Below are positions 30,797-33,425 of a DNA stretch of 64,000 nucleotides, piece by piece. The notes below the pieces were generated by a model. That model saw only the letters and a program-made list of their open reading frames with translations, was not told the origin of the DNA and did not search any database. Source of the DNA: Macrotis lagotis. Its lineage: Eukaryota; Chordata; Mammalia; Peramelemorphia; Peramelidae. The translations under genes and the position numbers were made by a program. Numbering within the stretch: position 1 is the first letter of the stretch; every line of letters begins with the position of its first letter. Location: positions 567,333,237 through 567,397,236 of the forward strand of contig NC_133666.1 in assembly GCF_037893015.1 (NCBI RefSeq). Direction: 5' to 3'.

Positions 30797-31023
30797 TGTA
30801 AGGGACTGTTGTGTGTGGGAGTACAGTAAACTTTTATCACCTGCTGTCCTCTAGTTGATTGTAGAGTGCCGTGGGAGTGAGAGTGGACTAGAGATTGGGG
30901 AGGATATTTAAGCACTTGTATTTGGTTTAATGAATGGTTAACTTGGAGAACTTGCCATCCTTGTCTCCTGCCTCTTCCACTTTCACCTGGGTAAAGGATA
31001 AGGTAACCCACAGGAACATAACA
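30797..31023 (+). mobile_element. 5' LTR of an endogenous retrovirus-like element
   Basis: Starts with TG ('tgtaagggactgttgtgtg') and is repeated as a direct repeat at 33251. The shared part (about 160 bp) contains 'gaggatatttaagcac', a TATA-like box, and 'tttaatgaatgg' where the 3' copy has AATAAA. The U5-like end runs to about 31023 ('gaacataaca'), two bases before the primer binding site. Relative to the 3' LTR it lacks a 22-bp segment and differs at roughly 7% of aligned bases by eye. Confidence 0.75.
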
Positions 31024-31025
31024 CG

Positions 31026-31043
31026 TGGTGTCTTAACAGGGAC
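31026..31043 (+). promoter_or_regulatory. Retroviral primer binding site, lysine-tRNA type
   Basis: 'tggtgtcttaacagggac' matches the 18-base site used by lysine-tRNA(3)-primed retroviruses at 14 positions. Three of the four mismatches are C-to-T, as expected from decay. It sits just after the 5' LTR, where a primer site must be. This suggests a class II (lysine-primed) element. Confidence 0.7.
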
Positions 31044-31236
31044 ATGAAATCTGATCAGGTGTCTGGGATAAGGACCAGCAGATACAAGCAAGGAAAAATT
31101 CCAGGTGACATCCCAGAGAAAAAGACTTTGGAGAAGGTAACAAGTCAATTGTTATCTACAAACAAAATAAGTATTCAGCATTGAGAGCCAGTGAAAGTTA
31201 GAAGAAATAAATAACTATTCAGCATTGAGGAGCCAG
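31044..31236 (+). mobile_element. Retroviral leader remnant with a 44-bp-spaced duplication
   Basis: Short untranslated leader-like sequence between the primer site and the CD164-like copy. No gag-like frame is visible. Near its end, a ~24-base motif around 'tattcagcattga' is present at 31168-31191 and again at 31212-31236, both ending in 'gagccag'. The junction between viral leader and host-derived cDNA is probably here. Confidence 0.55.
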
Positions 31237-32160
31237 CTGCACTGCAGGAGGATGGAGCTTCTTCCTCAGCAGCAGTCCATAGCCTGAGCACCAGTGCCAT
31301 GAAGGAGATGTGGGGGACTAGCTGGCTATTCCTTTTGGCTTACCTGGCCACACTATGCATGCTAAGTGCCACCCAGATCCTGAAACTCATGGCCAACTTT
31401 AGAGACTCCTTGTTGGTGCCACCGATGGTGATGTGGACCCTGACACCTGTGATGAATTCCACTCCTGAAGCCACAATGTCCATCCCACAACCAAGCACAC
31501 CACAACCCTTACTCCGGCACCAGAAAGCTGTAAAGTACACACTAACTGTACTTCCTGTGCTGAGAGTAAAAATGTCCCATGCTATTGGACAGTTTGTAAT
31601 GGTGCTGGCTGCTCTTCAGAAAATGCAGCAACTCCAAATTGAACTGCTGTTAACAACTCAACTAATTTCAAATGCTCTCTCTCATCCTCTGCCACCCCAC
31701 CCTCTGCAGAGGGAGGGGAAAGGAGAAGGGAAATCTTCCTTTTTTAGAACTTTGAAACTCAAACCTATGTCTCAAAAAGCTTATTTTAGAAATCAAGGGA
31801 CCCTCATGCCTTCTTCCTGGTTTGGTAAGGGGGGGGTATTGGGCAATGACTATGTTTTTCTTAGACTATTGATTGGGAAGCTTTGTGGTCAATTACTTAA
31901 GACAAAAGGGGAAGAAGACATTTTCTGGGACTGGGAAATTCAGATTTCATCTTTTGAATGAATCCTGTGCTTATGGCTAATATTTTGGTGTATTATGTGT
32001 GTATAATGTGCATTTAATCATCAATAGGACTTTTTCACTTCTCTCTACTGGCCTGGAGAGGTGGGAAAATGTTTCTATATTCTGAGATCTGGTACTGGCC
32101 AAGGTATCCATCTCAGCTTGGTAAATGTGTTTCAAGAGAGTTGTTTCTGTTGTTTGTGCC

Positions 32161-32164
<4 letters not shown>

Positions 32165-32207
<43 letters not shown>

Positions 32208-32249
32208 CTCTCTCTCTCTCTCTCTCTCTCAATCTCTCTCTCTCTCTCT
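32165..32249 (+). repeat. (TC)n microsatellite
   Basis: TC tract interrupted twice by 'tcaatc', in the 3' UTR-like part of the CD164-like copy. The Ser/Leu-repeat frames at 32061 and 32069 are its translations. Confidence 0.95.
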
Positions 32250-32564
32250 GTAATTCAGAAGGAAGTTATAGTAGGATAAATTGTATTTCTAGGAATTTGG
32301 GAATACTGAATCATATAATTTAATGATTTCTTTTGGGGAAGAGATATTTGTACTATCTGGTCTGCTTTAATATTAAATTGCTATAACTGTCAAACTTAAG
32401 TTATATATTCTTTGTCTCATCTATCATCACAAGTTAATGGTAAAAGAAATATCACAAATCATGACCCCCTTCTGGGATAAATCTGTGGATTCATGCATAT
32501 TATAATGATGAAAATATTATTTTGTAACATTTAATAACTCATGTTAATTAACTTGGATGCTCAG

Positions 32565-33109
32565 GGTTTTTTTTTTTTTTAGTTTTCGCAAGGCAATGGG
32601 GTTAAGTGGCTTGCCCAAGGCCACACAGCTAGGTGCTTAATTGTGCTACCTTGAAGTCTCAGCAATGTGAAGTAAAAAATAACTGACTATCATATGAGTG
32701 GCAAAAAAAGTATAGGCATTGTGAGATATCACAAAGATGGAAAGGAGAGAGAAAATTTTGTGTAGAAGGTAATATTTGAACTAGCTCTATATAGGCAAGC
32801 AGGATTTGGATATGTGTAAAGGAAAAGGGAAGGCATTTTTGTGGGGAAGAACTATATCTAATTTATATTTTACTTTTTCCCCTGGAAGAAGAACAGTATA
32901 CTGTGTACATAGCATTTGTTATCAGGGTTTGTTGAATTATAAATGAATTCCTTTGGAATATTCAAAGATCACTTTGAATAATAATAATTAATAATAATAA
33001 CAACAACAACAACAACAACAATCATATTAAGTATCTGAGGCCAGATTTGAACTCAGGTACTCCTGACTCCAAGGCCAGTGCTCTATCCACTGTGCCACCT
33101 AACCACCCC
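32565..33109 (-). repeat. WSINE1-like SINE, split by a later insertion
   Basis: The tail-side half is at 32565-32634 ('gcaaggcaatggggttaagt' to 'cacacagctaggt') and the head-side half at about 33026-33109 ('attaagtatctgaggccaga' to 'cactgtgccacctaacc'). The whole is flanked by the 8-bp duplication ATGCTCAG at 32557-32564 and 33110-33117. So it inserted into the CD164-like 3' UTR first, and was itself split afterwards. Confidence 0.88.
32635..33025 (+). repeat. Insertion inside the SINE; inverted copy of 35090-35393
   Basis: 32643-32952 is about 92-93% identical (by eye) to the reverse complement of 35090-35393. Weaker similarity continues to about 32985. It then ends in 'aataataataacaacaaca', an A-rich simple tail. 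The insert interrupts the SINE between 'cagctaggt' and 'attaagtatc', so it is the younger copy. In its own orientation the partner resembles an L2-like module. Confidence 0.85.
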
Positions 33110-33230
33110 ATGCTCAGTTGTTTTTACTATTGTTTACTATTGTTTAATTGTTTATACTATTTTTGAGCTTTCTTTTACAACTTATATGGCATCCATTATG
33201 TAATTGAATTAAGAAATTTTGCTTCAAAAC

Positions 33231-33250
33231 AAAAAACAAAAAGGGGGATT
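33231..33250 (+). promoter_or_regulatory. Polypurine tract next to the 3' LTR
   Basis: 'aaaaacaaaaagggggatt' directly before the TG start of the 3' LTR: the usual position and make-up of a retroviral plus-strand primer. The A-rich part may equally be the remnant poly(A) tail of the captured mRNA, so the two features may overlap. Confidence 0.65.
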
Positions 33251-33425
33251 TGTAAGGGACTGTTGTGTGTGGGAATCCTGTAAACTTTTATCACCTGGTG
33301 TCCTCTAGCACCAGAGTGTTATTTTACTGGTTGATTGTAGAGTGTCATGAGAGTGGGAGTAGACTAGGGACTGGGGAGGATATTTAAGCACTTGTATTTG
33401 GTTTAATAAATGGAGAACTTGTAGA
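33251..33425 (+). mobile_element. 3' LTR, U5 deleted
   Basis: A direct repeat of the 5' LTR from 'tgtaagggactgttgtgtg' through 'gaggatatttaagcac' and 'ggtttaataaatgg', with the AATAAA polyadenylation signal intact. It keeps a 22-bp segment absent from the 5' copy ('caccagagtgttattttac' and neighbours). It stops near 33425, where L1 sequence resumes, so the U5 part and about 165 bp of the L1 target were deleted together. This explains why no target-site duplication is visible. Confidence 0.75.

Follow-up and report, generated by a model that had tools for sequence, protein, structure and literature searches.

CD164-derived sequence in the place of pol in a family of endogenous retroviral elements of the greater bilby

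Captured host genes and the bilby element

Acute transforming retroviruses are known for their Gag-Onc fusions and for replication defects, with a helper needed for the defective ones, and the mouse elements ETn and VL30 are non-autonomous long terminal repeat (LTR) elements without a working pol that are mobilised in trans by coding relatives. Here we analyse an element that resembles both, found in a 64,000-nucleotide stretch of the greater bilby (Macrotis lagotis) genome (G000:C9:567333237-567397236), the whole of which we call the window. Like ETn and VL30 it is an LTR element without pol, but its insert can be traced to a named host gene, CD164. As in the acute transforming viruses and Rous sarcoma virus, a host cDNA, often fused after gag, lies in a retroviral frame; CD164, however, is a sialomucin and not a growth-signalling oncogene, and the bilby element was seen in this analysis only as germline copies. 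Our analysis indicates that a retrovirus of the bilby lineage very probably captured CD164 mRNA in place of pol and that the chimera was then amplified.

Host-mRNA capture by endogenous retroviruses (ERVs) is already known. The available part of PMC4299795 names Rous sarcoma virus src and describes, in crocodilians, the ERVs CrocERV29, which captured KIT-ligand, and CrocERV31, which captured nectin3; both are reported under purifying selection. As far as that part goes, the crocodilian elements are like ours in being ERVs with a captured host mRNA and more than one insertion, whereas in the bilby element pol was replaced, gag-pro was often lost later and no clear selection is seen. LTR retrotransposons produce retrocopies by template switching at short similarities, often from partial mRNAs, and the maize element Bs1 has pieces of three cellular genes (PMC5408686, available part); the copying of a cellular mRNA into an LTR element is common to that process and to ours, but the bilby chimera forms a many-copy mammalian family. 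MEBrv 3, an envelope-less marsupial betaretrovirus amplified inside genomes, offers a further likeness as a marsupial class II element, and the main text of its description, in the part available, mentions neither host-gene capture nor bilby or Macrotis (PMC11334065). The bilby case differs in the gene involved, in the exchange of pol and in what came afterwards: gag-pro was lost, CD164 was trimmed and the element was amplified. Among the literature matches listed, the close vertebrate precedent is crocodilian only. CD164 capture by a retroelement is not named in the literature found, in broad searches that are only partly listed and do not cover subscription papers or repeat databases, and the main text of the bilby genome paper, in its available part, has no mention of CD164 (PMC11239497). 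The interest of the case is that one genome displays the parent gene, the viral relatives and the junctions, and so bears on the way in which a mammalian retrovirus gained a transcript of its host and on the growth of the chimera into a family of repeats.

A repeat family with CD164 where pol would stand

The window copy does not represent a single event at this locus. The sequence-only reading of the window suggested looking for further LTR-CD164-LTR copies and for relatives with viral genes; both exist in the bilby genome, the former many times over and often with 6-bp target duplications that indicate movement of the unit. We searched 3,655,600,598 bases, including the large contigs C1-C9, and read 44 loci (cited below by their L numbers) picked by similarity to the LTR, CD164 or gag. 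CD164 is present in 37, comprising six with the 3' end that we call form 1 and 31 without the form-1 extension; the other seven are three short CD164-less elements, two pol-bearing loci, and L022 and L055, which fall below the CD164 threshold. With the LTR and leader as query, 40 out of 2637 first-look candidates were scored (51 matching pieces). Among 20 of these loci, taken as stretches of ~7 kb, a 5' LTR matches in 20/20 and CD164-like sequence in 17/20, a fraction biased toward the CD164 form because the query held the leader of the short CD164 form; L022 has only a CD164 fragment, and L019, L026 and L027 have no CD164. Seven other loci from that search carry a CD164 part downstream. A CD164 DNA search (40 scored out of 1236 candidates) gave 15 loci, namely the window, three repeats and 11 new ones, and all 11 new loci have a 3' LTR match. 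Dromiciops CD164 protein gave 150 scored matches out of 3177 first-look candidates, all with E <= 9e-15 and spread over all nine large contigs C1-C9, one of the 150 being the last exon of the parental gene and another perhaps an old processed pseudogene. Moreover, a pattern of the LTR end and primer site with at most three mismatches occurs at 182 places genome-wide and its reversed control at none. We put the number of CD164-element copies at about 148 or more; several hundred is a guess from the first-look counts.

The LTR-CD164-LTR unit replicated as a unit, by integration. Both LTR ends could be placed in 15 of the 20 LTR-and-leader loci (L014, L020, L022, L023 and L026 were excluded), the TG and CA termini being assigned manually with the flanking bases in view. 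The 6-bp flanks agree at 5 or more of 6 bases in nine of the 15 elements (mean 4.60 of 6), compared with 0/210 pairs in a swapped-flank control (mean 1.41); L015 and L017, whose ends were placed one base too far, are scored as misses. Kimura two-parameter (K2P) divergence between paired LTRs ranges from 0.077 to 0.191 with a median of 0.114 in 17 elements (16 plus that of the window), the window pair standing at 0.086 over 149 sites. At a mammalian substitution rate of ~2.2e-9 per year the median would correspond to an age near 26 million years (Myr), with large uncertainty. The split of Macrotis from Peramelidae is placed at 31.5 Myr (25-38) in the available part of PMC5121598.

Viral genes that the window copy lacks are found among its sisters. 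Long relatives have the order LTR-gag-pro-CD164-3' region-LTR: six of the 11 new CD164 loci have no 5' LTR within 1.5 kb upstream, where gag and pro lie and directly join CD164. Pfam matches above cut-off are Gag_p24 (L028), Gag_p24_C and zf-CCHC (L038) and RVP (L033, L042). The 5' LTR of L038 was located upstream, making that element ~4.07 kb by coordinates, and in L042 a single open stretch holds the end of RVP and the CD164 signal-peptide region. A gag query had 40 out of 469 candidates scored, and reading downstream from 12 gag-picked loci led to CD164-like sequence in nine (only the later part of CD164 matching in L046, L047, L052 and L056) and to pol in two, L049 and L053, with L055 assigned to neither. 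Pieces of L053 match RVT_1 and rve, and a piece of L049 matches RVT_thumb; both loci have the family LTRs and the family 3' region, and L049 is flanked by the target duplication CATAAT. Gag p24, CCHC, retropepsin, reverse transcriptase and integrase are in this way present as pieces across several sister loci and none is present in the window copy. A gag-side piece gave no homologue at E <= 0.001 in a protein search, a dUTPase-like stretch recognised by eye has no Pfam match, and env was not identified in the family loci. Judged from its sequence features, which are TG...CA LTRs, a lysine-tRNA primer site, a polypurine tract, 6-bp duplications and the domains just listed, the family is probably a class II (betaretrovirus-like) ERV.

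The junctions tell how CD164 sits in the viral genome. When ten pro-containing CD164 loci are aligned with L049 and L053, pol- and CD164-bearing forms are alike through GAGTTGGGAAG, just past the protease; beyond it the pol forms continue into reverse transcriptase and the CD164 forms into the CD164 5' untranslated region (UTR). This 5' junction is common to nine of the ten (L028, L033, L036, L038, L041, L042, L046, L050 and L051). At the other end, the longest form, seen in L064, follows CD164 to the parent's GTTCTCGTG (about codon 195, in the transmembrane segment) and then turns into viral sequence that CD164-less copies also have, the overlap being TG only; L063 has changed bases at this place. 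Among the 150 protein matches, 11 reach residue 188 or beyond, the parental exon and one C-terminal match with stops being left out of this count. Form 1 can be explained as the longest form after deletion between two CCCACC repeats, and form 2 ends earlier, at AGTAATT. Of 16 aligned short copies, 14 retain a few bases like the end of pro ahead of the CD164 5'UTR (the window copy and L025 do not), a short string that is only suggestive but fits derivation of the short form from the long one.

The parental gene lies on another contig. Its last exon (C5:110436718-110436891, minus strand) encodes the transmembrane segment and tail, is 86% identical to Dromiciops CD164 without stops, and is preceded by a splice acceptor; two further exons, also on the minus strand and bounded by GT and AG signals, lie upstream. 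They are separated by ~3.7 kb, and another ~1.8 kb lies between the second of them and the last exon. We read ~5.9 kb of this locus, covering the last three exons, with the first exons outside. In L009, L011, L013, L014, L028, L063 and L064 those exons that are present abut or nearly abut, with a few bases between them at most. The elements thus lack the parental introns, which means that a spliced RNA was captured. Eight copies that contain at least two parental exons differ from the parent by 0.046-0.138 mismatches per site.

The gene annotation also touches on this family. The element copy L063 (G000:C1:113203850-113205000) encodes, at 100% identity, a protein annotated in bilby as "sialomucin core protein 24-like" (P0001, 185 aa), so that on the practical side one annotated bilby protein comes from an element copy. 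Among the 120 listed of 825 proteins there is no other Macrotis-named entry, though a few of them lack a species name; the true bilby CD164 gene may be masked or missing in the annotation.

Route of capture and competing explanations

How could a retrovirus have come to carry CD164 in this way? We propose that a class II ERV of the bilby lineage took up part of a spliced host CD164 mRNA, the polymerase having jumped between viral and CD164 RNA during reverse transcription, and that CD164 from the 5'UTR to about codon 195 would thereby have replaced everything from the end of pro to the viral 3' region. The resulting gag-pro-CD164 genome, without polymerase or integrase, would have been copied in trans by pol-bearing relatives into many insertions, and deletions during copying would have removed gag-pro, giving the short form, and trimmed the CD164 3' end to forms 1 and 2; the window copy would be a short, form 2 copy that has decayed since. 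The capture and amplification are what we hold to be very probable; the template switch, taken by itself, is the route toward which we lean. Several observations weigh against this account. L049 and L053 have LTRs just ~68-78% identical to those of the window, which makes them cousins and not a proven helper, and L053 is without a clear target duplication; that the chimera was mobilised in trans is an inference. In six of the 15 elements the duplication falls short of 5 of 6 bases. Segmental or assembly duplicates account for some copies, C3:196786523 and C3:196930214 among them; a few pairs, this one and C9:108464365/C9:108589124, have identical scores. The 5' junctions of L056 and L024 differ from the majority, which later deletions may explain, and only two loci of the longest form (L063, L064) were read. 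Finally, a tree of the 3' region is star-like and weakly supported with the forms mixed, and the order of forms accordingly rests on junction logic.

The most serious competitor concerns the route and leaves the capture and the amplification as they are. A provirus upstream of or in CD164 could have been fused by a DNA deletion, pro to the first exon, and its spliced read-through RNA packaged, with illegitimate recombination restoring the 3' end; a template switch would then be needed at the 3' junction only. Such a history is favoured by the 5' junction, where pro is followed directly and in a single register by the CD164 5'UTR, the expected outcome of a DNA deletion, and by the 3' overlap of just TG, while 5.5 kb of the parent locus were compared without any LTR, gag, pro or pol match, in a region of ~5.9 kb that does not reach the first exon. 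We consider read-through transduction possible, but distinctly less likely than the jump between RNAs. The intronless state of the cDNA would equally be expected if L1 had made a processed CD164 pseudogene that inserted into a provirus, the composite then being copied; L1s occupy 20.91% of the bilby assembly (PMC11239497, available part), and one CD164 match with stops does reach the C-terminus (C3:141838642). The two longest copies, however, end in transmembrane codons against viral sequence with no 3'UTR or poly(A), and CD164 occupies pol's place without interrupting pol; neither a poly(A) tail nor a target duplication around the CD164 cDNA was seen in the aligned copies, where CD164 ends within coding sequence. 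An L1 origin thus appears very unlikely to us. Still harder to credit is the spread of a single LTR-CD164-LTR locus by segmental DNA duplication, which would account for the few identical-score pairs named above but hardly for differing flanks with their own 6-bp duplications (9/15 against 0/210 swapped) or for matches on all of C1-C9.

A separate question is whether the CD164 part was kept by selection, a truncated sialomucin having helped the element, for instance by acting as a decoy or by blocking reinfection. CD164 belongs to the SHREK mucins, which are reported to prevent HIV-1 particles from attaching (PMC8147968), and is listed among antiviral mucins with PSGL-1, CD43 and others (PMC11334937), in the available part of each paper, so that capture of a gene from this virion-attachment-blocking group makes a concrete case for the question of selected versus accidental capture. 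Several copies have open CD164 frames, and pro is in frame with CD164 in some long copies. We counted variants by codon position (1/2/3) at sites covered in at least 12 of 29 copies. Variants found in at least three copies number 34/46/48, variants found in two copies 33/28/30, and singletons 90/87/76. If selection had maintained the protein, a position-3 excess would be expected in shared variants. The deficit at position 1 could be taken as a trace of it, but there is hardly any excess over position 2 (48 vs 46) and a slight one over position 1, which points to a passenger; clear purifying selection on CD164 was not seen in these 29-copy counts. Moreover, the commoner forms have lost the transmembrane part and more of CD164. 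Retention by selection is therefore improbable in our estimate, and CD164 is most likely a passenger; an antiviral-type role of the CD164 part is conceivable, and nothing in the analysis favours it. We give similarly little credence to a stronger version, in which gag-pro-CD164 functioned as a transducing retrovirus and drew a replication advantage from its truncated sialomucin, made either as a Pro-CD164 fusion or in a mostly anchorless state, the trimmed gag-less copies being later parasites. If this were true, the truncated sialomucin might lower superinfection or divert a host antiviral mucin.

The window copy and minor observations

The window element, all of it on the plus strand, spans 30797-33421. 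The sequence-only reading had correctly recognised its frame of direct repeats with LTR hallmarks. The 5' LTR (30797-31023, 227 bp, TG...CA with the CA end at 31023) is without 22 bp that its own 3' LTR retains, many sisters being near 248 bp. The 3' LTR (33251-33421) has a TATA-like motif and an AATAAA at 33405-33410 and is truncated after R, its U5 and right flank being gone; no target-site duplication was seen around the window copy, as expected with such a truncation. Two bases past the 5' LTR, as had been claimed, lies a primer-binding site of tRNA-Lys (Lys3) type (31026-31043, 14/18 matches), the sole match of at least 13/18 in a plus-strand scan of the window, and sister copies have a like site. 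The polypurine tract AAAAAGGGGGATT (33238-33250) does adjoin the second repeat. Between the repeats, gag, pro and pol have no match in the window copy, in agreement with that reading. A leader with a remnant of the gag start region, judged by eye from sister copies, occupies 31044-31232 and contains a short repeat (31165-31185 and 31209-31229).

CD164-derived cDNA follows at 31233-31667, with an approximate left edge, and comprises 5'UTR, signal peptide (ATG at 31299) and part of the ectodomain, with the form 2 3' end. The proposed intronless CD164 likeness was borne out by tblastn with Dromiciops CD164 (71% over 51 aa and 41% over 63 aa, E ~3e-18); the CD164 sequence of the window copy lies in two frames, with a frameshift and an in-frame TGA at 31640-31642. 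The same CD164 part in sister L009 is above the Pfam MGC-24/CD164 cut-off. In the PDB the CD164 frame of L009 also matches SIRP-gamma (E 0.0006), a likeness that we set aside as weak.

From 31668 to 33237 runs the element's own 3' region, since CD164-less sisters have the same sequence from 31668 on (pol-bearing sisters partly); for this reason 31668-33250 was rejected as a CD164 3'UTR and the A-rich end is not an mRNA poly(A). Going by these comparisons, about two thirds of the interior of the window copy is element sequence, not CD164. The claim that CD164 extends to an A-rich end at the polypurine tract thus fails, CD164 ending at ~31667, and of a host transcript "taken up whole" the capture of host mRNA by a retrovirus stands but not the wholeness, the captured part running, in the copies read, from the 5'UTR to ~codon 195 at most, with no 3'UTR and no poly(A). 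Likewise, for LTR-mediated retroposition by template switching, the retroviral copying of a spliced mRNA stands and the switch is the inferred part. As for the window copy, it has the look of a late descendant, after two deletions, of a gag-pro-CD164 element with CD164 in pol's place.

The 3' region of the window copy includes a CT repeat (32167-32250) and a short interspersed element (SINE; 32565-33109) flanked by the target duplication ATGCTCAG at 32557-32564 and 33110-33117. This SINE is missing in L004, L005 and L008, indicating a later insertion, and is itself split, by eye, by a nested ~385-bp stretch (32640-33024).

The CD164-less elements L019, L026 and L027 are short, with an interior of ~740 bp that is 81-89% alike; their open frames have no Pfam match, and the interior perhaps consists of gag start and env remnants. 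In L046, L047, L052 and L054 an Asp-Pro/Asp-Ala-rich repeat stands in place of part of the mucin region, perhaps marking a subfamily. The CD164 match at G000:C3:141838642-141839043, which begins at residue 77, reaches the C-terminus and contains two stops, is probably an old processed pseudogene apart from the elements. L013 (3363-4590) and L054 (1637-2370) are seemingly split by insertions whose frames resemble L1 ORF1 by eye, and in L025 a second, inverted fragment of the 3' region (oriented positions 76-943) lies just upstream of the element.

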